Source: Agelas oroides
Taxonomy: Eukaryota > Porifera > Demospongiae > Agelasida > Agelasidae
Length of the DNA stretch: 64,000 bases
Assembly (NCBI GenBank): GCA_949130485.1
Contig: OX422183.1
Span: forward strand, 12,064,543-12,128,542
Reading direction: 5' to 3'
A program made the translations under genes and the position numbers. The notes below the pieces were generated by a model. It saw only the letters and a program-made list of their open reading frames with translations, was not told the origin of the DNA and made no database searches. Shown one piece after another: positions 9,743 to 52,959 of this stretch (positions are counted from its first letter, which is position 1; every line of letters starts with the position of its first letter).

Positions 9743-10054
9743 AATTTAGAAGGGGAGGCTGTCTTTTCACCCAATCCCATGCGGATCACGTGATAGGCCT
9801 CCAGGACGAAAGGTCATTGATGAGGGCAGATGTGTTGGAGACTGCGCTTGCGAACAGCAGGACCTGCGTGTTCTCCTCAACAGGTAAGGCAGTTTATAGA
9901 TTTAGTGATGTTTTACTTTACGTGTAAATGAGAGAGGGTAGCATACTGGGATGGGGACAAGGATTAATTCCTGCTCTTGTGTATGAATACAAGAGACTTC
10001 TTACCACATCTGGCCACTTTTGTCTGCTCCCCAAACCTCCTGGTAGATTGTAAG

Positions 10055-10672
10055 TAGTCTTGCAAACCCGACCCATTTCCGTAAGAGAAGGGAACGGTCT
10101 AGTGAACTGCGTATACAAGCCGTGTCCCACCGGAATGCAATTAGCTGGATGACATAACCAGATTTCAAATAATGCACTCTTGAATTACCTGTTGTGGAGT
10201 AAGCACGCTCGCCGAGAAGTATAGTCGAAGTGTTTTATACAGCTTCTGCAGTAGTGTAAAAGATTCCCTAGCTCTCTTTTGCCATTTTCAAGACTGCTAT
10301 TGCTACTCATGTTGGTGACTTTAAAACATGCACTCTCAGTAAGAACTCTTTTCTTGGTTATTATGTAATCTGTACAACTCTTATTCATTATTATGTAATC
10401 TTGTAAACCACAATTATTCACCTCTAGAACATTCTAGAACTCAGTTATCCCATCACGTGATATGCCTCATGCTGGTTTTATGGCTTCATGGCACATTGTT
10501 GGCAATACTAATCTTGAATTCCGACAACTCAAACAGTGACATAATGCGTCATGTGACAAAATACTGCAATGTGATTTTACCACACTGTACAGTGCGGCGG
10601 GACACAGCTTGTATACGCAGTTCACCATACCCTTCCCTTTTCTTGTGGAAGTGGGTCGGGCTTGCGAGACTA
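10055..10672. mobile_element. hAT-like MITE, copy 2, itself interrupted
   Basis: Ends TAGTCTTGCAAACCCGACCC and the complement; 8-base flanks ATTGTAAG (10047-10054) and ATTGTGAG (10674-10681). The interior matches copy 1 at 1595-1974 except for an insertion of about 220 bases (10,310-10,531) bounded by ACTCA on both sides, a likely 5-bp duplication from a third nested element. Confidence 0.78.
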
Positions 10673-11132
10673 GATTGTGAGTGTGGCAAGAAGGAAAGGG
10701 AAGATTTCATAGGACTGATAGTGGGTGACTGGGTGTGCCTTTGTGCTAAAGTGTGTCCTCATCACATCACACAAGTGGTTTTAAAAGTGTAAGACCCAGT
10801 GAAAGTAAAATGCAGACAGAAGCATAAACATAATTAGCATAAGGCCCTTCTAAGGGAGAATCTACAAACTATTTTTTCCAAAATAATATCACTGTGACGT
10901 TGTGACCCCTCCTCATAACGTCATGCATACTGTCGACTTTTGATGAGACACCACCCTCAAATATCAGCCGCACAATCTGAAGCTCTGAGTGAAAAGTCAT
11001 CGATAGGAGCCTTGGGTAATTATCCATCCACCTAGTTGGAATAACTTAATCCTATGCACATATATTTACTACTTTATTTGGTATGTATACACAGGTGTCC
11101 TGTTATCACAAGTGTCCAGGATTTGATTAGTC

Positions 11133-11333
11133 TCATTCCCAGACTATTTATCCACACAGGGAGGGAAAAATAGTCTGGTCAATAGCCTATTCTGTTTTTG
11201 TTCCTTGCGGTTTAAAAATTGGTGATGCAATGTGATTGGAACACCACCATCGTGGTGCTTGGATCAAAAACGGAATAGACCATTGACCAGACTTTTTTCC
11301 CTCCGCGTGTTGAACAACTGTCTGGGCACGAGA
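11133..11333. mobile_element. Short foldback MITE
   Basis: The outer ends read TCTCATTCCCAGACTATTT and, inverted, TGTCTGGGCACGAGA. The interior arms (AATAGTCTGGTCAATAGCC and its near-complement) also pair. It belongs with the CCTCGTTCCCAGG-type hairpins and is nested in the non-autonomous Mutator-like element. Confidence 0.65.
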
Positions 11334-11995
11334 CGGAGTTGATAGAAACTTTTCTATATTTGTCTTTGCAGATTGAGAAGTGTAGAAGCTTCAGTCAAGA
11401 TCTGCCTGTTGTATCCTCCCACGTGAAGACCTAACATATGATGGTTACATGCAAGAGTTCTGTGCATGCTGTCATGTTGTATGTAGTCATTTTTGTATCC
11501 AGTCAATTTTTGTTAGCCTCAGTCCTTCTTACTCCAGTGCTTGTCAGCCGTACTGCAAGAAAATAACGCATGATTAGAAGGCCTGGGTATGAGGATGTTT
11601 TTTTTTTGTTTGTTTTTTCTTTGTAAGTATTCATGGTCAAATTTTACAGTCAGTTCTGATTTGGATCAACTTGCATGGTTGAATTTCAGCTGAACAACTT
11701 ACAGTAAAACGTAACCAGTAAAACAAGACTTTAGTAATATCAGCCTTATTCTTTATGCAGGCAGGCTACTTTAGTAAAGAACATAATTATAACGTCATGT
11801 ACTAACGCTGAAAGAAGTCATCTAGCTAGTTCCGTGCTGCACGAGTCTAGCCTAGCCTAGGTCCAAACTGACGTAGGAAACTGAGAGCGCTAGTGACTAG
11901 CCCGACTTCACCGTGCAAGTTGCACCGGAAGTCACATATCAATTAGGGCGGTACCACATGGGATTGGGTGAAAAGACAGCCTCCCAATTTAGAAG

Positions 11996-38110: not shown

Positions 38111-39564
38111 AAATCGAGATAAGACCGGAAATCGGTATACCAATGTGTAATGGCCGATTTGCACTATAGGTAGTGATTCCGGAGGGTTTTCCAAACTTTT
38201 ACGTAAACTATTGTAGTAATACTTATCGGATTCAGCATTCAATTTTGAGTACAACGGTTTTTGTTTCACGCGAATCGGTGCAGTAGAAACCGAGATGTGC
38301 ATCATTATTGCAAGGGTCGCGTAAGGTGCCGGGTGAAAGCCGCATCCGGTGGGTGGAGCTCTGGGCGTGACCTACATCGTGTGACATATGAAGGATACAC
38401 GTGCACCTGTTTGACATCTAATCTCATTAGACATGACTGTTGTACTTTGACCTCGACTGCTGACTTGCTTGCTTGGCAAGGGCCAAGCATTGCCAAGGCA
38501 CACAGCCAACTGTTCTACAGCACTTCCTAAGGTATCCAGTAGAGATTTATATGTGTACCAATGCATCAGACCTCATAAAAACTCAGCAGGAGTCCAGCGG
38601 GTTGCATAAATCATGATCATGGCCTACTCTAGTACTAGGATTAACTAGTTCACTTAGTACTTCCAATTTCTCAGAGATGGTAACAAAACGTGCATGTATT
38701 CCTGGTCAAGGGAGTAAATAGTCTCATGTCAAGCCATCTAGGCTCCCCAATGAAGAATAGCAGGTGCTTTGACTCAAATTCCTTGTCAAGAACGTATATG
38801 TCCAGCAAATTAAGAATGGAGCACTGATACTGTTCACTCTTTGTCACTATTGATTATACACTCCTTGATTTTGTTGGCCATCCGATATTCCAAGCATCCT
38901 ATTGACAAGAATATTGAATTAAACCACCAGACTCAGAGATTGTGGATAAGCGTAATCTGGGGACTGACATCACTACTTGTAGCCACTTTGATTGATGCTC
39001 AAGCCTTCTGCTATCAGTGACAGCTATAAATCATACCCATTTCTCTGTACTACTCCTAAGAAACGTGTAGTCACATGGTTGTTGGATGCAAACAGTTCGT
39101 TGATTTTTAGTTTCTCATCAAGTGTTTTATCTGCACCCAATGCGGGTGGGCAGCTTATTCTTAGCCGACAGATATTTCTCACCGAAGAACTCAACAAAAA
39201 TGATGTCAGGAGGATCAATGCTCATTATACGCTGTTGTAGAAGAGCTCTTTCGATGCTGTGGAGTAGACAGACACGTTTGTTGGCATTGTGTTCATTGCT
39301 ACGCTTATCCGGTACGTCGTTAGTATCTTATATGAAAAAAGAAATAACGGTGATATATTCTATCTCAGAAATCCATGCAGGTGGCTGATGAGAAACTAAT
39401 AATCTTACATGGCCATAAAAAGCAGTCAGGCAGGTCAGGTTAGGCCTAAGCAATTTTATGCAGACCAAACATGCACATGAGCACTTTGATATAAACTAGT
39501 AAGAATGACAATTTCTCCATTATTTGACACAAAACTATTTACTTCCTTGATCAGGAATACATGT

Positions 39565-39869
39565 TGTCTCACAAGCCACACCCTTCGCAAAGAGAGGAAG
39601 GGTCTGGTCACGATACAACCATTGAGTTGTCAGCGAGGAACGCAATTATCGAATGCATGCAGCAGTTAAATAATAAGATGCTGACATCTGCTTAGCTAGG
39701 AGGAGGCTACTGCTTAACATGCGACATAATTGTGCTCCATGACAATGGATGTGACCTACAAAGAGTGCAGATCTGATTGGTCACATCAAGTTTCTGCCAT
39801 GGCAACAACTCTATGGTTGCAGTGTGACCAGACCCTTCCTCTCTGTGAAGGGTGTGGCTTGCGTGACTA
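39565..39869. mobile_element. hAT-like MITE, copy 4
   Basis: Inverted ends TGTCTCACAAGCCACACCC and GGTGTGGCTTGCGTGACTA, with inner arms AGGAAGGGTCTGGTCAC and complement. Related to the TAGTCTCGCAAGCC family. The flanks do not give a clean 8-bp duplication. Confidence 0.6.
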
Positions 39870-40094
39870 GAAGACATGCACGTTTTTATTTTTATCGTCT
39901 CTGAGAAGGTGGAAGTACTTAGTGAATTAGTTAATCCTATCAATATCACCAACCAATAAAACATAGGCCTGTCGCCCCAGGATGGAGAGCCTCAAGAACT
40001 TCAGTAGCTATGTGTACATGTACCAGAGTAGGTCATTATAATTACTTAATGCAATTCAAATAGACTCCTGCTGAGTTTTATGTCAACTTATGAA

Positions 40095-40373
40095 TTCTGA
40101 TGCATTGGTATACTTGTATTAAAATCTCTACTGAATACCTTAGCCTGGCTTAAGAAGAGCTGCAGAACAGTTGGCTGTGGGCCTTGCCAAGCAAGCAGTA
40201 GTCGATGTCAAAGTACAACAGTCATGCACCAGTACGAAGTGTTATTCTGATGCATTGGTACACTTGTAAATCTCTACTGAATACCTTAGCCTGGCTTAAG
40301 AAGAGCTGCAGAACAGTTGGCTGTGGGCCTTGCCAAGCAAGCAGCAGTCGATGTCAAAGTACAACAGTCATGC
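40095..40373. repeat. Tandem duplication, about 150 bp unit
   Basis: Two adjacent near-identical units, each starting near TTCTGATGCATTGGTA and ending near GTACAACAGTCATGC. They sit in the right arm of the composite foldback; the left arm carries a single unit. Confidence 0.85.
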
Positions 40374-40491
40374 AAAGCCAGCGCAATGACACGATGTAAC
40401 AGCTTCAGCCCTTCGCTTCATATGTCATCATGACGTAATCTAGGTCGCGCCCTTAGCTCCACCCACCGGATGCGGCTTTCACCCGGCACCT

Positions 40492-40814
40492 TAGTCTCGT
40501 GCCCCGCCCGCGCGCGCCTCCCGGCGAGAAACGGTCTGGTGAACGAAGTCGAATTTCTTGGGCTTATTACCCAAAACGGGTAATGACCAATGAGATCGCG
40601 AGATCGGTAATTATTACGTAACACTCCCCTTACAACAGTAAAATTTGTTCATATCTATTCGAGTATCCGTACCTTTTTTGAGCGGGTTGACCGCAAAATG
40701 TTTTGATCGTTGCTAGGTTACAATGTCGCAAAAGCTTGCGCTAGCCCAAGAAATTCGACTTGGTTCACCAGACCGTTTCTCCTCGTGAGAGGGTGGGGTC
40801 TGGGGACGAGACTA
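40492..40814. mobile_element. hAT-like MITE, copy 5
   Basis: Ends TAGTCTCGTGCCCCGCCC and the near-complement, inner arms CGGTCTGGTGAACGAAGTC and AAATTCGACTTGGTTCACC. Flanked by CGGCACCT (40484-40491) and CAGCACCT (40816-40823), an 8-base duplication with one difference. It splits the right arm of the foldback; without it the arm matches the left arm continuously. Confidence 0.8.
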
Positions 40815-40959
40815 CCAGCACCTTACGCGACCCTTATTGCAAAGTGGTCGGTACAAAATTTTGGGATACTTTTAATAGCGATGTCGGGGTGAAAATCAAA
40901 ATTCGTTTATCACAACAACAACCTTTATTTTTGAAAAGAGCTTAAAATGGCGATTCCAA

Positions 40960-43320
40960 CGGTACCCATATCAATGAGGTTGGGTGAATACAACAAGCGG
41001 TATGGTCTTCGAAATGTAACTGGTTTGCCAAATTTTTTCTACGTCATTTTAGCGTAATATTCCGGTCACTACCTTTCCGGAAGCGACTGTAAGCCCGATC
41101 AGAATGAAACTCGCTGTGAAGGATAGTCTGTACCTATTCAGTCCAATGAAGGTTGTGGATTTTAGATATCTAGTATAATCCTTGCACTAGGCTTGATAAA
41201 TGCTTAAAAAACGGCATTTTGTGGCCATAAATAGTTGCATTTCCGGGGAAGTTGTAGCAAGGTTCCAATCAAAAACCTGTACCATCCCATTGGACAACTA
41301 CTCTAGTATACAGAACTGGTTGTGCTTTCTTGAATATTGAAGTGACTGTGAGCAGCATCACAAAATGTCTTAATACTTCAACAATTTGCAGAAAAGTAGC
41401 GAGATGTGACAAAAACTTGTGTGTAGTTTTGATCGAGGCATATATTTTTAACAAAGCTGTGCAAGGAAATATGCCCAAGCCTCTAAGGAACCTCTATATC
41501 AAATTTGATGTGAATACATTAAGGCATTGTGGAGAAATGGCCTGTGTAGAAGAATATTTACATACTTTTGGAAATTCTGACATCACTACTTTTAAATAGA
41601 CAAAGTGGTACATTCGGTAATCATCACGTGCGTGCACGGAAAATCCAAACTTGCACATATCTCGGGAACGGTTAGGCGTACAAAGATGGAACTTGCACCA
41701 AACTGTTGCGCACGGAGTGGTCTATCTCATGAGAGTGTCATCGTGTACAGAGCTCTATGGCCTTCAGGAAAAGCATGCAGAAATCTGAAGATATGAGATC
41801 CAAATAAAGCCTGAGAAGTGTATAAATCAGTCTGAAGCAACAGCAGTGATCAGCAACGGAGTATGGGTATGTTATTGCAAACTGTTTTCACCAATGTACC
41901 CCGGGTAGGGTAGGCAACAATGAAGTATAGTTGCCTGTCTCCCCCCCGGGTCTGTTTGGATGGCATAATCAATGAATCCAAAGTACCTACACTAACCTGC
42001 AACTGTATGACAGGATACGGTAAATGAGCCTCATTCCCAGAGTTTTGTAGCTGGAGAGAAGAGGCCTCAGGTGCACATTTATTTTGTGCGTGTGCGAGGT
42101 CTCTTTTGTACTTGCATATTAGTGTGAGGTACTCTGGATGGTTTTGAAGTCAGAACTAATGTCCCTTTGATGATGGCAAGTCTTAATTTTCTTATAATTT
42201 TTTGAGGAAATTGTTAGACACTCGAAAGTTATTAGCCTCGTAACCAGGCTTTCTCACCCTAGTTTTTTCCATCTGTAGCACCTACTAACCTTCGTGGTAC
42301 GGCAAATGGTGTGGCGATAAAACCTGAGTATGAGGCTAAACACACAAGCACAAGCCGAACGCAGCAATACAGCGCTTGCCAACCACTAAATTTGACTGCT
42401 GAATATTGAACATGTGTATACCAGGACAGCCTGGGAATTAGGCATGTGTGCATGTTTGAGAGGGATTGGATGATCTGATTATGATGGGATTTCATGCAGC
42501 CTCTGGCCTAGTGTCTGTCATTTCTGCAAGTCATAGTAGAGATTATTGTGTTGTTCTGCTATTTACTGTTTTGTTCAGCAATTCAAACCTATATGTATAT
42601 ATAGAAGACGGGAATACTCTAACTCAGAAGAGTCGAACCCTGTGCAAGTTGCCTTTTGCAATTGAGGTAGCCACAAAGGGGCACAATCAGGCTTTTTACA
42701 AAGCACACCACAGGGCTATTCCTGCTTAGCAATAACAAATGATGTTGTCCACAACACTTTTCACCTCCTCTTCATTGAGGCTGAAGATTGCACTTGAAAT
42801 CTGCGTTAGAAGCCATTGATATTTGTATAGGAATGAAAATGGGTAGCTATTCACATTACGTTGTGTGTTTATCCTTCCTTACAGGTGATGGTCATCCTAC
42901 ACCTATGTAAAGTTGCTGCTTTTGACTGGATGTGTTCACATTGCATGCCTTAATTTTCCGAAAGCTTGATTGTGTAAGAACAGAACATTATTCTCACTAA
43001 TTACTCTATGATTGGAATTGCAAGCATTACAGTTCACATACACTGTATTACCGCTCCTGTACTGTGAAATATTTACTTTCAGCAGCAGTGGTAGAAGGGG
43101 GTTCTTGGTGCAAGGAATGCGATTATGTCACTTTCGAAGTCGGGCATCTCACCGATCAGCTGGTACACGGAAGTTTTCTCCGGTTTTCACAAAGAAGCAC
43201 TTCAAAGTTACAGTAAAGTGAACGAAAGACCAACCAATCGATTCTCCGATCAAAGAGGATTCGAGAAATATATATTTTGTCGGGGTATGTAGCTACCATG
43301 AGAAGCGCCGAGGTGAAAAT
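40960..43320. other. Gene-poor interval left of the Mutator-like element
   Basis: No gene is supportable. An 89-codon plus frame (41,330-41,599) lacks a recognisable domain. Foldback-family ends (AGCCTCGTAACCAGGC at 42,234; CAGCCTGGGAATTAGGC at 42,427) suggest a diverged 200-bp foldback. A small foldback lies at 41,897-41,951. Confidence 0.4.
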
Positions 43321-43326
43321 GTAAAC

Positions 43327-46300
43327 GGGAGGCTGTCTTTTCACCCAATCCCATGCGGATCACGTGAGTACATAGCAATTTGATTTTTGATAATGACATA
43401 ATGCATACAAGCAAGATCGGAGAGTGAGCGAACTAGTCGATGGTGATTACGGTGTCACTACACCTTGGAATGATCACGGGAGGCAAGAGCTGTGTGCCCT
43501 TTTCCGCAGGTAAAATGCTTTTGTAGTGATAATTACTGTAACAAAGTTCAATATGACTGTGGGTGAACGGGAGTGTAGCTTGAAGACTCATAGCAGGGAT
43601 GTTCACGTTGTCGTAGTTCTTAGGCGTCGCCTTTTTCTCCCACCGTACTATGCCAGACGGATTTGGAGAGCAAACAAAGACTGTCACATTGAAACAGCCA
43701 CTGACAGCCTGGAGCTCTACTTGAGTACCCCAGCTTCCCACAAGAGCAACTCTTTGGAGATGTTCATTAAATGTGGTCTTTCCCCATGGTGTATCTTCGA
43801 TCCAGTAAGGCTGGTAAATGATTTTGTTGCTTTCAATCACTTCCAGCAGCATACTTCGCACATGAACATGATGTTGATCACTGCCATAAAGCTGATGGGA
43901 AAGTGCACAAAACATGCAGTTACCATCTGGCAAGACGTCCTGCGCAAGGCGACATTGACTCATCAAGAAGCTTTCAACATCAGTAAGTGTAGATGGGGGA
44001 GCAGATATTGGAACAAGTGATCTGGGCACTGTGACGCCTGGTGGGAGTATAAAGTTTGGGGTTGCCATCGCCTGCGAGTGTATAGAAAATCAAGTTACAT
44101 CATACAATCATGATAGGAGTTATCTGAATCTTCACTTATCCAAATCCTCAAATAGTTATACTGAACATTCTCCTCCCAATGTGTTCTGATAAGTGACCTT
44201 TTATTGTATAGTCCTTTTTTGCAAAAGTATGTGATGTAGGTTACCTTTAGCAGTTCATCTCTGGAGAAAGCCTTGCCTTCTGAGAAACAGTCACTACAGG
44301 GTGTGCCTGGAGTCAAAAGATATATGTACATGTAGGTACATCTCACTTGTGTTGTAGGTGTGTAAATACAGTGATACTTTGTAGCACATTCTTACCAGAT
44401 CCATGTGCAAGAGAAGAGAGCTTTGATATTGTTGTTGCAACGTTTTGTGTGTGGATAGCTGCTGTGGCATGTGCTGCACTGAGACCTGTGCACTTTCTGC
44501 TTCGACATGCTTTCTTTTTCGTTCCAGGCCCACCAAAGCATTTCATGTCAAGGCATTCTGTGCATGTGCCACAGTTTGGCTGCTGACATCCGGCACATTC
44601 CCCACAGCGAACTCTGGAACGTTTTCGACTGACCCTCACTGTCATGAAACAAATTGAGATGTGCAAGTTAGAAATTTCTTTGTGAGGGAAAATATGTGTG
44701 TGCTCTAGACTGAGTGTATCAATTTGTAAACATACATGTGAGTAGCTGATTCTCTTGTGGTTTTCCAACGTGGGAGGGGCTGCTTGCTGGTGGGGACTTC
44801 AGTTCCTGTTGTAAATAAAGGTAAAAGACAATTATACACATTAGCCTTGTTCCCGTTCTCTAACTGCCACCCAGGACTGCTAAACTTGAAAGCCACACAG
44901 CTATGACTACACATTTCAGTAGTGGTTTATACCACCGCTTTTGTGCCTGTTAGGTGTTCTCACACACAAAGTCGTAGAACTTTTTGTGGTACAAAATACT
45001 GACTTGCTAGGACTCTCAGTGGTTGCTTTCCAGTACTGTTCGTATCATGCATGGGGACAGCTTGGGAACAAGGTTACTTGCACATACTGGTATATACTCT
45101 CTACCTTGCGCTTGTTGGTAGCTTTTCGTCCCACTCTGTTACGGTAGGAAGCATCTAGTCGAGGTCTCCCTCCCTGTTTTGTTGGTAGTGCTTTGTACTG
45201 AGATATCTGCTGACTCAATCGTTTGTACTTTCGCTTTAGTTGAAGAGCTCTTTCGGCACTGCTGGTAGCTTTGGGACGAAGGACTAGACCCTGATATTTT
45301 GGAACACATTCACAATACTTCCGTTGGAGTGATTGTAAATCTTCCGATAGGTTTTGTAAGTTTCCAATCACTTCCATGTTGAAGGAGAGTGATTCAATCT
45401 CCTTCAGTGCAATTCGGATTGCTTGTCTTTGTCTCCTCAGATCTTGAGTGTATGAGAGCTGTATATAAAGAATCACAAATGAAAGTGTTGATAGAAGTCA
45501 AATGCACACCGTGAACATGTCCTACTAGCAATATCTTACCTTTTTTGTAGGTAATATATCTCATAGTGTGCTTTTGACATCATCGTTGCTACTGGAGCCT
45601 AGCTCTGTAACACCTTCACTGGATAGGGATTGTGACAAGCTGTGCTGCTTTGATAGAGCTGTAGAATCCGCACTCAGATAAGCACTTCTCTTGTACGTAT
45701 CTGGGAGTGCATTCCACCCCCAACCCTCCACCAAACGGAAGATGCCAAAGAAGTGCTTGCAGGGAATGTGCCATTGTACCCAGTCAGGGCAGGTACATGA
45801 AGGCTCACCAGTACCAACACCAAAATCGATGGTGTACACTTTGCCTGACCCCTGAAGAGTAAACTTTCCTGTTGTCACATCTTTCGTGAGAATGTCATCT
45901 TCAGTATACTTTTTACTACTGCTCTTTCTCTCCAGGCAGTGAATGATGACTTGACGGGGACGCTCACGAAGGTAATCTGGAACAAAGTCATTGTACCGTC
46001 TGTAAGTCTCTGACATCTGGTAGTTGAGGTATAAGTATTTATGGTGTGTTTCTGGAACAAACTCCTCATAGAGTACTGTGGCCAGGTGGGAGAGTGTTAT
46101 GTTCTTCCTTCTTGGCAAATAGCTATACTTGAGCAGCTTGTTCTGAGATTCAACCCCATTTGTAGTGTTAATTGCTGCATGGTATGTCTGATCACGGTAG
46201 GCTCATGCCCACAGCTGTATATGTAGGAAACAAAATCGATGTGTCACTTGATGTCCTAAGCAATCAAAAAGTGGATGGTGGGAAAGCCTGCGTCTACTTC

Positions 46301-48382
46301 CTGATCTACATTAATTGATACATGTACATGCTTCTTGTAAACATTGCAGTGTAGAAAATCTCTGAATTAATCTTGGAGATTTCTGTTAGCCTAATTTCTG
46401 TTGCTATGTTACCTGCTTAGCTACTTGTAAAAAAAGGTGTTAATTAATCAGTTGCAAGGTTTCCACACTTAGTCTATGTCTATAGTGTACTGTGTAGTAT
46501 TGTTTACCCTGGGACAGCACAACCACGTGTTTGTGAGCCACTGCTGAGCATTCTGATTTCTCTGCCACACGTCTGCAGCCTTTAGTTGAACCACAGCATG
46601 TAGATAGTGGTGATCAGATGGCTCCTCAGGAAGATTGTAGTTGGGAGGTGCATTTGCGCAATCTCGTAACAAATCAAGAAGAGCTGCAGCCTGGAGATCT
46701 GACAAGCCATGTTTTTTCTCCTTCACCCATCTTTCCCAAGCTTGTTCCCTGTGAAATTCACAGAGGTAGACCTGGGTTTTGGGGAACAGCTTGTTGACGG
46801 CCGCTATTTCAACATCAGAGTAGTCTGTGATGTAAAATTGAGGCTCCCATTTTGGGTTCCATGACTTCAAAACGGATAAAGCCTCATATATACAATCGGC
46901 GGTCTCTGATTGAATAATAAACTCAGCCACTACCGAGTAGGAGACATTGGTCTTCACGCACACAAAAAACAAGGGAATGCTGTACTTTGTCGTCTTGTAT
47001 GTGGCATCCATTAAAGTGACTGTGTTGCCATAACGGGTTAACAGCTCTTTCTGCCAGTCTTCCTGCTGAATGTATAACAGTGTTTCTTCCACTGTCTGTT
47101 CGCTACAGGCTTTGATATCAGCTGTTTGCTCTGTTTGTGAGGTGCTGCGAAATGGCCGGAAGAAGAAAGATGACTGGGGGTTGTCTTTTTTCCACTCTTC
47201 GATTTTCAGGCGTAAGTTTTCTTGGTCATACTTTGACAGCTCCATTGCTCTTTTGGCCTTGCTGACATGATTGCGTATGTCCTCACTAAGTGGATAAAAT
47301 GCTCTGTCTCCTAAATGTGGCTTCCTCCCCAGTTCTTTACTGAGGTACTTGTCAACATAATGTTTCAAAGAATGCTTAATTTCTGATGTGTCAGTGATTC
47401 CAGCTTCAACCATGTCCACAATCTTTTGAGAAATGGTGGGATGTAATTTCTGTGCATAGACTCCAGCCTGACCTGTTGGGTGGCCAGAATGTGCTTCTTC
47501 TTGTGGCAGGGATATGAAATATTTCATTGTTGTTTTGACAGGCCTCTTTGCTTCAAGTTCTGTCTTAATCATTTTGATTTTTTCCTCTTGCAGGCACCTG
47601 AGCTTCCATTTGGACAAGCTCTCCTTTTCTCCTTTGCTAATTGCAAACTCCGGATACAGAGTGAAAGCCTTCACCTCCACATGAGCATTGCACCCAATTT
47701 TGCGGGTGCTTTGCAACCAGAGGCGTTTCCCCTGCACTGGTTTTTGCTTGAAGTACTTTGGCCCGAACTGGCAGTCAAGGAGTTTTTCTTCAGCTACTGA
47801 GAATGGAATGTTGTTGAACTCAATAGTCTTGCAGCCCTCCTTCTTTTGCCAGTAGATCCTTATTTTCTAGGAATTCAGACACAAAGATTTTACAACTGAA
47901 TGACAATGAAATTACATCCCACTATATGAGTGTATTATATTTGTTAATATTTACCTCAGATGTTTGTATGGTATTTCCAGCCTCATTCTCTTTTTCTTGA
48001 TCTGTTCCAACTGAAGCATTTGCCCTGGACTTTCTCACGCCATACGTTGTTACAGTGGCCATGCAGTGCTGTGATAGCACTGCCTTGTAGTCATCCACAA
48101 AACCCTGGTAGTATTGGCCACATACTTCGAGGTTGTGATCACTAGCCCACTTGGGCTTCTCCATGGAGTGAAAACGGGAAGAAAGAGCGCTGAAAAGCAC
48201 TGTGGGTAGCTAGAACACGAGCTCGTACTTCGCCACGAGGAGCGCGAGTTTGTACTTTGCCGCGAAGAATGCCGATTGGTTGCGAGATGGAGAATTTAAT
48301 TTACTCCGATCCCGATCACGCAGGAAGTCACATGACGGAAGGGGGCGTTACCGCATGGGATTGGGTGAAAAGACAGCCTCCC
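43327..48382 (-). mobile_element. Full-length Mutator-like transposon
   Basis: A 5.06-kb element bounded by inverted terminal repeats identical for 32 bases and beginning GGGAGGCTGTCTTTTCACCC; the same ends bound the non-autonomous element at 9,753-11,985. It carries one long minus-strand gene filling nearly all the interior. The flanks (AAATGTAAAC on the left, CTATAAAATA on the right) do not form a clear target duplication, so the insertion may be old or rearranged. The right end lies 264 bp before the start codon of receptor B. Confidence 0.92.
43433..48164 (-). CDS. MULE transposase-SWIM-CXXC-OTU protein
   Basis: Transposase for the surrounding element. Eight exons in coding order: 48164-47955, 47866-46508, 46103-45540, 45458-45105, 44805-44736, 44638-44396, 44306-44245, 44071-43433. 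Phases are 0,0,0,0,1,1,0, giving 1,167 codons. Domains: zinc/WRKY-GCM1-like DNA-binding region (about 71-150; TRKIGCNAHVEV); MULE catalytic core with MDATYKTTKY (Asp357), TDYSDVE (Asp418) and CEFH (439-442); SWIM finger (Cys626, Cys628, Cys638, His640); coiled-coil-like basic segment (712-829); CXXC finger (864-902, eight Cys in the canonical spacing, KCFGG where the family has KFGG); OTU cysteine protease (955-1166; DGNCMFC with Cys1006, HIELCYSNYHY). Codon 704 is TGA (45563-45561), yet the frame continues to a phase-0 donor. The exon 3 start is the least certain boundary. Domain calls are firm; joined activity is inferred. Confidence 0.85.
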
Positions 48383-48646
48383 CTATAAAATAGCTTGCCG
48401 CTCGTGTACAGCGTGTCCTCCAGCCATAGTTTTGAGATTATCTATTCCAGATACGATAAGCTCTGCTACCGTATATAGCCAATACGTTAAATTTGAATCA
48501 GAGCCACCATCAGTATAGAGTCTACTTTGCTGTTTACCGTGAACTACGCGCCTTCTCCCTTGTGCAAGGACGCGCGCAAAAGCGGCGCGAAGACGTTCAT
48601 GCAGACAGGAAGCTACACCCTCTTTAACACTGAAACAATTGACGAC
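48383..48646 (+). promoter_or_regulatory. Residual upstream region of receptor B
   Basis: Only 264 bp separate the transposon end from the receptor B start codon. CTATAAAATA at 48,383-48,392 resembles a TATA element and sits directly at the transposon junction. Whether it drives transcription cannot be told from sequence. Confidence 0.3.
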
Positions 48647-51325
48647 ATGGCTACTCGAAAGTGTGGACTGTGTTTGGGGGTAGTTGCGCTGGGATGTTTT
48701 CTCCCTGCAGTGGTTGTCAAGCTTGGTGTTGGTAAACGTTTTGATATGTATTCTGTAGTTCACTAGCTAATTCCTTCCATTAGTAGAGCCTATCAAACAG
48801 AGCTAAACCAACTAGAATATAACTTTTATTGTTTTCCCTTTTATTTGCACAGATGCAATGATAATTGAAGGACCTGGGAACAACACAGTACCAGTTGGGG
48901 CCATTGTGACTTATCACTGTATTGCACGAGGAGACCGTGTTTTCTGGGAAATAAATAACACGGAAATTGTTGGTCAAAGAACTGCTATCTTTATGGCCAA
49001 GGGATTCACATTTAATGAAAGTTTTGCTGACTCCACCATCAACCTCACTATAATGGTTAATGCATTGGCAGGAATCAACAACACTAGGATAGTCTGTTTG
49101 GTATTGCCAGCTGCTGACTACTCCCTTGGAAGCCTCACAGTGATAGGTACATCCCCTGGAATGAGTTACTGGGTAAAGTTAGAGGGCTTTTTGTCGTTAA
49201 TTAGCTTGATAATGATTATATAAGTCTTTAGTTCAGAGAAACCAGTGTAGAACAAATTCGGCCAACAGGCCATGATAATTGTTTAACAATTCAGGTATTT
49301 CACTCCTGTAAGGATGTTGGGTGATGTCTTGGTTGCACAGCTAATACACAATCAGAATATTATTTCTTCAAAATAGATTGCGAAGTTGATCAGCTCATCT
49401 ATATTTTGTCTGCCACTATTTGTCCTGAACACACATGTACACAGGACCTCCTCTTCCACCTGATCCACATCTGTATATGTTCAGTGCTACCACCATACAG
49501 CTCTCCTGGCTACCTCCTTTCTCATGGAGAGAATACCCAATTGTAAACTACACTGTTCAAGTTCACAACAGAGCTACTGGGGAGATGATAAACTCGACTG
49601 TAAATGCAATATCTACTGAGATGCTTTCAACAACAGCTCTGGTGACTTTCATCTACAATACGCCACATGGAGGAGTGGTGCAGAATTGTGAAGAGCTGGT
49701 CTTCAGTGTTTCTGCAGCTAGCATCATTGGATGGAGCAGTCCAGCAGTAGTGACTGGAGGTTTTCCAATAGGTAACTTACACACACAGCATAGTACAGCT
49801 GCTTTGGTTTTTGTTTCTCTTATCTGAAAGTATTTCACAGATGGAGTAAAGATTGGCTCAGTATATATGCACACTCCATTATCTGGGAATAGTGTCAGAT
49901 AAAGTATGAATGCCACTATTCCTTTTAGCTAAAAGCACCTCAAATGGGCTTTCATCTTAGAGTGTCTATTTATTTGTATAGTAAACACATGTATATGTAT
50001 ATTATGCATATTATGAGGAAAATGTGTCTTTAATTCTGCAGCCCCGAGACTGGATACTGCTTCCATTGAGACCATGGTGGCTTTTCAGTTTGATGGTGTT
50101 CCATTGTTGCTTCTAAGTATCGAGGTGAACATTGACCATGTATGCGCTGTATCAGCTACACTTGGACTTGCACTATCTGCACTTGTGTATGCATTGACTA
50201 TTACTTAAGTGTGCTTCTATACTGCATGCAGTTAATAATGCTATGCACAATCCAACACTGCAAACAGATTCATAAGCTTTAAGTATTGAGTAGTTGAGTT
50301 GTTAGTTAGATACAAAAGATGCAACTTTTCTCCTCCACAGCTTCCTGATACATGTCCATTCCAAGAAATGCACTACAGTATAACAATCCAACAGATCTCA
50401 CCCCCACATAACACCCTCAGTGATGCTGGGGAAGCTGCAGATAACATTATTGTAATAGGTCCAAAGACAGTGGTGGGGCATACAAATGTGTATGAAGTGG
50501 TTAACTCCAGCTTGGTGGTGGATACTGTGTACTCAGTTTTAGTAGACTTTGATACCCTGGCTGGGAATGTTTCTTCTAACACTACCTTTGGTAAGCAAAT
50601 GTTTTTTGAAACAACACTGAAAGTTTATGAACACTGGATTTCTTTTTATGCCATTTGGAAACAAACTTATACCTTTGTTGCACAAACTGTCACATGTATA
50701 AATGCCAACTCTCATTACAAAAACAATTTTCTGTTGTCAGTGCATAATGTTTTATGTAGGTTCACATTAGACCAAAGGCCACATTCTGGGAAAGATGGTG
50801 TTTTTTAACGCTATCCGCACTGTTTTCCCCTTCAACAGGCTTGAACAGTACAGTTCCCAGACAGTGTTCCTCCCCAGAGACACATTCTCAACCAACAACT
50901 GATTACACTGACATCATTGCTACTACAGGAGCTGGTATAGTTATTAGCAGTTTGGATTGAAGGCATCATGACATTGCATGAATCATTCCTTGTTGATGTT
51001 TTGTTGCCAGATAATTTGACTGGGTAAAATTTATGCAAACAACATCCATATAGCATGTGCCGATAACCTTTAAGGTGGCAGGTAACCCTACATTTTCAAG
51101 GTCGACAAACCTGGAATCCAAGCCCATAGAACTCTTTGTCTTGGTAAAATTTTAGCACACAGTCCGTTTTAGGAGTCTCAAACCGTTCACTGTCCGTAAA
51201 ATTGGGGATTTTCCCCATTTCCTGTCGGCATTGGCATCCAATAATCAGTTTATAATTAAGTTAGTTAAGATGTGGCCTGGCGGTACCCTTCATGTGGTGG
51301 TCGGAACTTTGAAGATAAGCTTAGA

Positions 51326-51362
<37 letters not shown>

Positions 51363-52959
51363 GTTTAGTAGAGTGCTGTAGTGTCAGTAGCTGTGAGTAG
51401 TACGTAGTGCCTGCTTGTGAAAGCAAGCTTGCATCTAGAAGCAGCAGAAAGGCCACAGTGGCCAAGACTGTACTCATTGGGCAGGCCCAGGTCTTGCGAT
51501 CGTATGCCTAGCCTAGTTGGTGACCGTGGCCAGGTGCTTCGAGTGCTGGGCTGGGCTTTAACTAGAATACGCAATTTATCGTTGGTGCTACACTCTGGTA
51601 CCCAAGGGAGCTGAATGGTGGTTGTGTGTGGAACAGAGCCGTGAGTTGTTTAGCGACATAAGGGGGAGAGGTGGGGCTAGTAATGCTTGCTTGCACTCGT
51701 GAATGAGCCCCTCCCGTAGACAAGCTGTGAATTTTTTGAAACGTGCATTCATTTTGGTGCAGTCAAAGTTGTCCATTCCAAGAGTAGTGACAAACATGAG
51801 TCTAGCCTGACTTTGGGAGTAGCTCTGAACAAAAGCTGGCACAGACTGATTTGAGATACATTGGTGGTTAGGACGCTACCTACAGTGAGCGTGTAGATGC
51901 GTCCATCGAGTGGCAATTTTGGTTCATGAATATATTAATGAGCTACTAAAACCCTTTTTAAAATTAGGGAAAGCAAGATTGCCCTAAACCAAACCCTAAC
52001 CCTGAAACTAGGAGTAACACTGGTCCTGACTGTAACCCAGGTTTATGTTTTCGTTAACCTCCGCCGAGTGACTTCCCCCGCCACCTTAATGGTAATATTT
52101 ATGTTACCCATACAGCTTCATATTTTATCAAATACTTACATCAGCCTCTAATAAAATTTATACTAACTATTAAAAATGTATACCTCATACAGCAATCAGC
52201 ATTATTTTATCTCATAAAGGTATCAGCTTGGTGGAGAAGACTGCAGTAGGTGTGAGTGTTAGCCTTTTCATCGTTATTACATCTGCAATAACACTGTTGC
52301 TGCTGGTTTGTGGCTTCATGTACTGGAGGCGTACATCTGGTGAGTGGAAAGTAACCTGGTTCACCTGATGAAGATGGTCAAAATATTATAAAGTCGTCAG
52401 CAATTTCAAAAATTGAAGCAAATAGTTTTCGTGAGTCAGTCATTGTAGCAGTTCTTTCATTGTTGGTTTCTAAAACCTAGCTACAGAGTAGCTAATTATT
52501 GTGTAGCAAAGACTTGTTTGATATTATCATCCCTATAGTAACAGTCTATATTATAGTAAAATATATTCTCCTGCATTCTTAGATGAAAAGTCAGTCAAGA
52601 AAGTATCTGATGGTATGATGCCTAATCCAATTTATGAAGGACCACTGTATGAGAGTATCCAGCCAGAATTCAACACACTCGCTGCGCCCCAACCAACAGC
52701 AGATGTGATGGAATCATGCTGCCAGGAGAACCCCAATCATCAAGCTGTACCCACTGAAGTGGCCAACAAGATGGAAAACGGGACAGTAATTGAAACGGCT
52801 TGTGCACCGTCTCAGAGGAGTGGTGAAGGTAACAAAGAAAGCAGTGGAGCCTATCCAAACAATGATGACAACTATACGGTCATGAGCCCCATTGGTACCC
52901 TAAATTCAAGTTTCCTACACGGAGGGTGGGGCATTCCAAATTCTGAATCTTCCAAATAA
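48647..52959 (+). CDS. Ig-FN3-FN3 single-pass receptor B
   Basis: A 543-residue paralogue of the receptor at 14.85-20.22 kb. Exons: 48647-48731, 48853-49146, 49445-49771, 50042-50124, 50341-50590, 50839-50934, 52220-52339, 52583-52959; intron phases 1,1,1,0,1,1,1, identical to the paralogue, and exon 5 is 250 bases in both. Signal peptide (CGLCLGVVALGCFLPAVVV), Ig domain (TYHCIARG, VFWEINN, IVCLVLP), FN3 (LSWLPPFSW...VVTGGFP), second FN3 (CPFQEMHYSITIQQ), Thr/Ser stem (347-378), membrane helix then YWRR, and tail 419-543. Tail motifs match the paralogue: NPIYEGP (433-439), LYESI, and DDNYTVM with Tyr516. Intron 6 contains a TTAA transposable element (51,074-52,085). Start chosen as the in-phase ATG giving a short signal peptide; upstream in-frame codons exist. 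Signalling through SH2/PTB partners is inferred. Confidence 0.9.
51074..52085. mobile_element. TTAA-flanked DNA element, copy 1 (in intron 6)
   Basis: Inverted ends GGTGGCAGGTAAC and, reading inward from the right, GGTGGCGGGGGAAG, immediately flanked on both sides by TTAA (51070-51073 and 52086-52089). TTAA duplication is the hallmark of piggyBac-type elements, though the terminal sequence is not the classic one. Contains a run of 25 A near 51,335-51,359 and a minus-strand 84-codon frame (51,588-51,842) shared with the second copy. Confidence 0.75.

Follow-up and report, generated by a model that had tools for sequence, protein, structure and literature searches.

A CXXC finger and an OTU protease on the predicted transposase of a Mutator-like element family in the sponge Agelas oroides

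We analysed a stretch of 64 kb from contig OX422183.1 of the sponge Agelas oroides, hereafter called the window, in which a Mutator-like element (MULE) occupies positions 43327 to 48382, with its coding strand on the minus strand. Judging from sequence comparisons, we think it reasonably likely that this locus belongs to a multicopy, cut-and-paste lineage of Mutator-like elements, the transposase of which would unite a DNA-binding domain of the CARF type, a catalytic DDE core, a SWIM finger, a CXXC finger and an OTU protease in one protein; the roles that we infer for the last two are part of this reading. The lineage keeps its domain order in divergent copies, ends in terminal inverted repeats (TIRs), is flanked by 10-bp duplications at loci other than the focal one and sits at CpG-rich sites, and the focal copy itself is broken. 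All coordinates are positions in the window unless a genome locus is named, and the genome searched was the 259-Mb assembly with its 141 contigs.

The preliminary description of this DNA, made from the letters alone, had proposed a coding span of 43433-48164 on the minus strand, with a DNA-binding region followed by a MULE core and by SWIM, CXXC and OTU domains. Both the span and the domain set and order held, and none of the profile searches that it had suggested as a check (MULE, SWIM, zf-CXXC, OTU) failed. All of the domains exceed their Pfam cut-offs in the open reading frames of the exons: ALS2CR8 (CARF, PF15299) with 5.8e-28, ZSWIM1-3_RNaseH-like with 1.3e-12, MULE with 1.8e-12, zf-CXXC with 1.7e-12, OTU with 2.1e-12 and, barely, SWIM with 5e-4 (20.0 bits, cut-off 19.6). 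Among the Pfam matches of the focal protein up to E 1 there is neither a FLYWCH domain, as in the DNA-binding region of Phantom elements, nor an integrase family, as in the core of Ginger1. Compared with host CXXC proteins, the CXXC finger matches MLL1 with 5e-11, and the nearest PDB proteins of the OTU exon are OTUD1, OTUD3 and OTUD5 (E 2.7e-4 to 6.5e-4); for exon 2, which holds the CARF domain and the MULE core, no sequence relatives were found in PDB. The CARF identity of the N-terminal DNA-binding region is an addition to the earlier account, and so are the TIRs. These are 32 bp long and 100% identical, as expected of a MULE, one at 43327..43358 on the plus strand (3' end of the coding strand) and its perfect partner at 48351..48382 on the minus strand (5' end of the coding strand). 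A 31-bp core of the TIR has 262 matches in the genome at up to three mismatches, and the reversed control has none.

The CARF-MULE-SWIM-CXXC-OTU architecture is very likely a trait of the family. Genome-wide, we found at least 119 matches to the MULE profile, at least 69 to ALS2CR8, at least 91 to CXXC and at least 79 to OTU. Starting from the 47 ALS2CR8 matches of at least 450 bp, we looked downstream on the same strand for CXXC within 7 kb and for OTU within 9 kb; CXXC was present in 31 of the 47, OTU in 27 and both in 26. An OTU match follows within 4 kb on the same strand for 48 of the 91 CXXC matches, and on the opposite strand for one. Similarly, CARF or MULE lies upstream of 38 of the 91 CXXC matches on the same strand, versus 5. 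There are 81 MULE matches without CARF within 2.5 kb, and only two of these have CXXC downstream; both exceptions have a CARF match at most 5 kb away, one of them apparently split by an insertion. We considered whether the domains could be chance neighbours, and this was ruled out by the TIRs, the 262 matches to their core and the linkage of the domains in the genome.

The same order is found in a second family, about 50% identical to the focal family in exon 2, which has 41-bp inverted repeats (110 repeat matches). In its copy L044, with the pieces joined by eye and without the short linker exons, ALS2CR8, MULE, CXXC and OTU all exceed the cut-offs and no stop codon interrupts them; a SWIM-like motif is visible but was not among the Pfam matches. 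The key residues are conserved as well. D357, D418 and E545, which form the DDE core of a MULE, and C439/H442 are invariant in 13 aligned sequences. The eight zinc-binding cysteines of the CXXC finger recur in divergent copies (30-50% identical), with one cysteine replaced in the decayed copy L043. So do the OTU motifs DGNC and HY, named for the OTU cysteine and histidine, with HF instead of HY in L049. Three copies (L039-L041) are shortened and lack the CXXC/OTU part. Two of them, L040 and L041, belong to family 1 and are shortened in their interior; they share the left flank and differ in the right one, and neither has a clear duplication as read.

Eight exons can be drawn on the minus strand of the focal copy with GT-AG borders and compatible phases, as had been described, but the single clean frame of 1,167 codons is ruled out by two in-frame TGA codons that relatives read as sense. 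Exon 1 (47955..48164, a predicted join) begins with ATG. Exon 2 (46508..47866) matches CARF/ALS2CR8 at about 47246-47866 and the MULE core at about 46751-47020, including the catalytic Asp357 and Asp418. Exon 3 (45540..46214) contains the catalytic Glu545, the SWIM finger (about 45753-45815) and both TGA codons, as seen from Pfam and the alignment. Exon 4 (45105..45458), the putative coiled coil of the preliminary description, has no Pfam match; similar sequence occurs in the metagenome protein P0001 and in L044. Two short linkers, exon 5 (44736..44805) and exon 7 (44245..44306), are predicted joins around exon 6 (44396..44638), to which Pfam and the alignment assign the zf-CXXC finger (about 44490-44624). 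Exon 8 (43433..44071) codes for the OTU protease with its DGNC and HY motifs, again by Pfam and alignment, and ends in a stop codon at 43433-43435.

The first of the two TGA codons (46203-46205) comes in frame with the natural acceptor of exon 3, and the second (45561-45563) precedes the strong donor of this exon at 45540. At both positions there is a sense codon in the close copy L042 and in P0001, which is 74% identical; P0001 also backs the donor at 45540, just before which L042 has one base change. We found five GT-AG junctions that avoid the first stop, each of them deleting conserved residues or using other donors, and these may explain how one frame had been obtained. If the weak donor of exon 3 at 45579 is used, our joined frame runs for 1,190 codons up to the final stop; for the strong donor, simple arithmetic gives 1,203.

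The left target-site copy of the focal element is AAATGTAAAC, 10 bp at 43317..43326 of the plus strand, recognised within a repeat that we call X by comparison with other X copies. The site is intact in these other copies (one of the ten read has a single change), and a family-2 insertion occupies one of them. At the right end of the focal copy there is no matching 10-bp duplication; X is cut exactly at AAATGTAAAC on the left, and its remainder is absent on the right. Given the two in-frame TGA codons and the absent right duplication, we regard the focal copy as a decayed member of its family, and it does not have the intact transposase frame of an autonomous active element. Duplications in the 8-11 bp range typical of MULEs are seen in the lineage and not at the focal copy: 10-bp duplications are exact in L046, L047 and L048 and in a non-autonomous family-1 relative elsewhere in the window (9753..11985, no strand assigned), they contain mismatches in L044 and L019/L101, and they were not seen in L040, L041 and L049 as read. 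The relative at 9753..11985 has the same TIRs and a perfect duplication, AATTTAGAAG, and its interior has no likeness to the full element except at the ends.

Next, we turn to the places where the elements insert. Insertions of two families lie in CpG-rich DNA around an AT-rich 10-bp palindrome (S-WWW-NN-WWW-S), which is a new observation. For family 1, 40 flanks, one side each, were taken on contigs C1 to C8 at matches free of mismatches, among 100 of the 262 TIR matches; some loci that were close together, seemed to be duplicates or were already included were removed by hand, and two copies in the window were added, which gives 42. The family-2 sample consists of 12 flanks of 8 insertions at loci already in use, not drawn from the 110 matches. 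As background we used tiles of the window rather than a genome-wide random sample. Family 1 has 5.69 CpG per 100 bp (n = 42 insertions) in the 100 bp that border the element and 2.95 at 800-900 bp, and the ratio of observed to expected CpG, 1.07 next to the element, drops to 0.61 at 600-950 bp. The difference between near and far DNA is significant (Wilcoxon p = 1.4e-4), and so is the difference from 565 window tiles (mean 1.81, p = 1e-15). The family-2 flanks have 6.67 CpG per 100 bp and a ratio of 1.20 in the first 100 bp. In both samples taken together, 42 of 54 flanks contain at least 4 CpG per 100 bp, versus 98 of 640 window tiles, and the 37 of the 54 flanks that have no repeat match in the DNA compared average 5.70. 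A ratio near 1 suggests that the sites are unmethylated in the germline. Since the palindrome itself contains little CpG, the CpG lies around the target. Moreover, the focal element and a family-2 element have inserted into separate copies of X at exactly the same base, which points to a target recognition shared by both families.

For comparison we used flanks of R1, a repeat of about 1,020 bp (51070-52089 in the window, at least 40 copies) with TTAAGG...CCTTAA ends and a piggyBac-like target. They have 2.2 CpG per 100 bp (n = 10, two of which, L103 and L108, are alike and thus not fully independent), which does not differ from the window (p = 0.19) and is below family 1 (p = 7e-4). The second comparison is repeat X itself, part of which lies at 38171-43326. 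It is a young repeat with at least 21 other places at 96-99% identity in addition to the flank of L019, it has the ends TAGTGATTCC...GGAATCACTA, and its copy in the window is interrupted by other repeats. Target duplications of 7 bp were seen at the left ends of five X copies, four read by script and the fifth (L112/L091) by eye, and its insertion flanks are CpG-rich as well.

The following mechanism would account for these observations. All exons would be joined in one spliced transcript. The CARF domain, perhaps together with SWIM, would bind the ends of the element; as it binds specific DNA in vertebrates (PMC2877716, in the available text), it probably does so here. The DDE core would cut and join. 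The CXXC finger, which in MLL1 or DNMT1 prefers unmethylated CpG, may tether the complex of transposase and DNA to unmethylated CpG-rich DNA and so cause the insertion bias; on the analysis as it stands, we see such guidance by the CXXC finger as evenly poised between right and wrong. Finally, the OTU protease may remove ubiquitin at the place of insertion. Candidate substrates are the transposase itself and chromatin proteins, histone H2A among them, and the case for any particular one is doubtful. The preliminary description had supposed that OTU could protect the element or its host partners from ubiquitin-dependent turnover.

Several results weigh against a five-domain transposase that selects its sites by means of the CXXC finger. 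Of the 47 long ALS2CR8 matches, 15 have neither CXXC nor OTU in reach, and in L049, which does have OTU, CXXC was not found. Searched with the whole protein, the database gave 28 relatives, and the Pfam domains precomputed for them include neither CXXC nor OTU. The exon joins are predictions from sequence, and the AlphaFold2 model of the OTU exon, based on two sequences, reaches a predicted local distance difference test score (pLDDT) of 33 only. In addition, the focal CXXC finger departs from MLL1 at the Q of the KKQ stretch, which is K here, and it has C in place of K before FGG. KFGG and KQ are tied to CpG recognition; they are kept in family 2, and the focal family 1 reads CFGG and KK. That family 1 has K for Q and yet both families are CpG-biased is awkward for a simple role of the CXXC finger. 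The flanks of X, measured over 40 bp in 10 copies, have 5.25 CpG per 100 bp, not different from the MULEs (p = 0.42). Lastly, the comparison covers R1, X and window tiles and contains no CXXC-less MULE; in a compact one (L002-L004) no TIRs or duplications were seen, so that its borders could not be set. Since X shares the bias and no CXXC-less MULE was compared, a causal role of the CXXC finger in the bias is not established. The earlier suggestion that the element could choose unmethylated DNA gains some support, as both families lie at CpG-rich sites that are not depleted of CpG, but repeat X and the K for Q in the focal finger keep it short of proof.

It is quite possible, though short of probable, that insertion into CpG-rich DNA merely follows from open promoter chromatin together with an AT-rich target core, with no part for the CXXC finger in target choice. 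Such an explanation fits repeat X, which has a similar bias and is not known to carry CXXC, and it fits the target logo, which is itself AT-rich. MULEs generally tend to insert in or near genes (Dupeyron et al. 2019, in the parts available), and in yeast 41 of 60 Muta1 insertions lie in gene-rich regions (PMC5225508, in the parts available). On the other hand, the TTAA-flanked R1 shows no bias, and the bias of the MULEs is highest within 100 bp of the element and strong in both of the families that carry CXXC.

Alternatively, the CXXC finger may act on the element itself, binding unmethylated copies or ends or shielding them from methylation, with OTU countering silencing and the insertion bias being secondary. 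We consider this rather unlikely. Host CXXC proteins do act at unmethylated CpG, and methylation seems to reach the copies: transitions between copies are about ten times as frequent at CpG sites as at other sites (0.108 versus 0.0098 for L042, 0.145 versus 0.0119 for L039, 0.157 versus 0.0183 for L043 and 0.025 versus 0.0032 for L040), an excess that fits methylation-driven decay. However, a finger acting on the element alone would leave the CpG peak outside the element unexplained.

Could CXXC and OTU belong to a second gene inside the same element, unfused to the transposase? The second codon of exon 8 is ATG, and 17 of the 91 CXXC matches are paired with OTU while neither CARF nor MULE was detected upstream of them. 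The C-terminal part of the protein, used as a query, had two matches, P0001 and the protein P0029 of the sponge Dysidea avara; the latter, 44% identical to the C-terminal half of the focal protein, starts only shortly before its SWIM-like part. Nevertheless, P0029 joins this SWIM-like motif (CxC...CxH, not reported by Pfam) with CXXC and OTU in one annotated protein, the phase is kept across the intron borders from exon 4 to exon 8, and order and strand recur in the genome with a spacing that is nearly constant within families. We therefore find a separate gene improbable and favour the fusion to the transposase, because of the profile hits, the conserved order and strand in divergent copies and P0029. 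That the locus is a domesticated host gene, as its multi-exon structure might suggest, is refuted for the focal copy by the TIRs, the many copies, the two premature stops and the decay at CpG sites, and has next to no probability.

Outside this genome, a few of the relatives carry other modules. Among the 28 database relatives, Ulp1 is present in three (P0011, P0021, P0024) and PHD in four (P0021, P0024, P0025, P0027), with both in two of them. The proteins P0021 (Hydra), P0025 (Mya), P0027 (Watersipora), P0011 and P0024 have a MULE/RNase H-like core and are 30-34% identical to the focal protein; as in the focal element, ALS2CR8 exceeds the cut-off in P0011 and P0025, whereas P0021 has only an end piece of it. 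Where the focal family has OTU and CXXC, these relatives have Ulp1 and/or PHD; Hydra P0016 shows both only at scores under the Pfam cut-offs. P0001 ends before the CXXC exon, so the absence of CXXC and OTU from it is uninformative. A search with the family-2 C-terminus returned seven matches, for which the precomputed domains list CXXC in all seven, and MULE and OTU in none. According to the preliminary description, homologues always lacking the C-terminal domains would speak against it; such a lack is seen in other animals by Pfam, but not in the copies of the genome itself nor in Dysidea. From these assignments, a chromatin reader and a protease for ubiquitin or SUMO appear to occur together repeatedly on this transposase lineage, with different modules (at the level of Pfam, in 2 of the 28 relatives).

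One could go further and picture an integrase guided by CpG that brings its own chromatin eraser. The CXXC finger would dock on CpG-rich promoters that are unmethylated, where the tethered protease would strip ubiquitin, for example from H2A, and keep the landing site open; Polycomb deposits ubiquitin on H2A with the help of host CXXC proteins. CXXC with OTU in the sponge, and PHD and/or Ulp1 elsewhere, would then realise the same design in two ways, namely a CARF-type MULE equipped with a chromatin reader and a ubiquitin/SUMO protease. We regard this extended picture as speculative and unlikely in its entirety.

How does the element compare with named systems? OTU in MULEs is already on record, whereas a CXXC-bearing transposase is apparently undescribed. 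An Ovarian Tumour (OTU) motif is given for MuDR-6_HM, a MULE of Hydra in group 14 (Dupeyron et al. 2019, PMC6446971, in the parts available). By description it resembles the focal element as a Mutator-like element of an early-branching animal with OTU, and it is by description only that it is set apart, as its entry there names no type of zinc finger; the terms CXXC and ALS2CR8 are absent from the main text of that paper, as far as available. Ginger1 transposases have a C-terminal OTU or Ulp1 protease, one of them also PHD, on a core that is a Gypsy-type integrase rather than MULE (PMC2836005, where the term CXXC is absent from the text available). From the same text, Ulp1 is known in Mutators of hydra, lancelet and plants, and PHD is known in Rehavkus (PMC6446971, as above). 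Like the present families, Phantom MULEs are found in animals, with 8-10-bp duplications where given and SWIM in some; some of them have a FLYWCH-type domain, in place of which the focal element uses the CARF domain (PMC6446971, likewise). A word-based search of the open-licence literature gave, among the matches listed and as far as their text was available, no paper that appeared to describe a CXXC-bearing transposase. In the available parts of two papers that mention both CXXC and transposase (PMC12460157, PMC11244446), CXXC refers to DNMT1 or TET and not to a transposase.

Two host protein groups share single modules with the element. MLL1, DNMT1, KDM2A/B and CFP1 have an eight-cysteine CXXC finger like the focal one, but they are chromatin regulators and not transposases. 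The vertebrate transcription factor CaRF has a DNA-binding domain of PF15299 as the focal element does, a link that is made by family name. CaRF is described as without homology to other factors, and it is a single-copy transcription factor as opposed to a multicopy transposase (PMC2877716, in the available text). A MULE origin of its DNA-binding domain is possible. The start of the family-1 TIR has some likeness to the CaRF consensus, which we set aside because the family-2 TIR does not share it. One ALS2CR8 match in the sponge genome (G000:C6:9842266-9842874), in an open frame of 478 residues, has no MULE within 2 kb, and downstream no CXXC within 7 kb and no OTU within 9 kb; it is possibly the host CaRF gene.

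Some further features of the window should be mentioned. Directly to the right of the focal element, in the region 48383-48660, there is a TATA-like stretch, CTATAAAATAG. The ATG of a gene that, read by eye, resembles an immunoglobulin/fibronectin-type receptor follows about 260 bp to the right of the element; the element may sit in the promoter of this gene. A short element at 1594-1975 has imperfect 55-bp inverted repeats, a 7-bp duplication (GTAGACA) and CpG-rich surroundings, and pieces related to it occur inside the non-autonomous copy at 9753-11985.

Integration guided by chromatin marks is known for some retroelements. The CpG-rich sites together with the CXXC finger suggest a testable way in which a jumping gene could pick its landing sites. 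If the finger does guide insertion, the influence of DNA methylation on a transposon would extend from its silencing to the choice of its landing site. Furthermore, the link to CARF hints at where an orphan vertebrate transcription factor may have come from, with PF15299 being, as far as the sequences suggest, the DNA-binding domain of these transposases.

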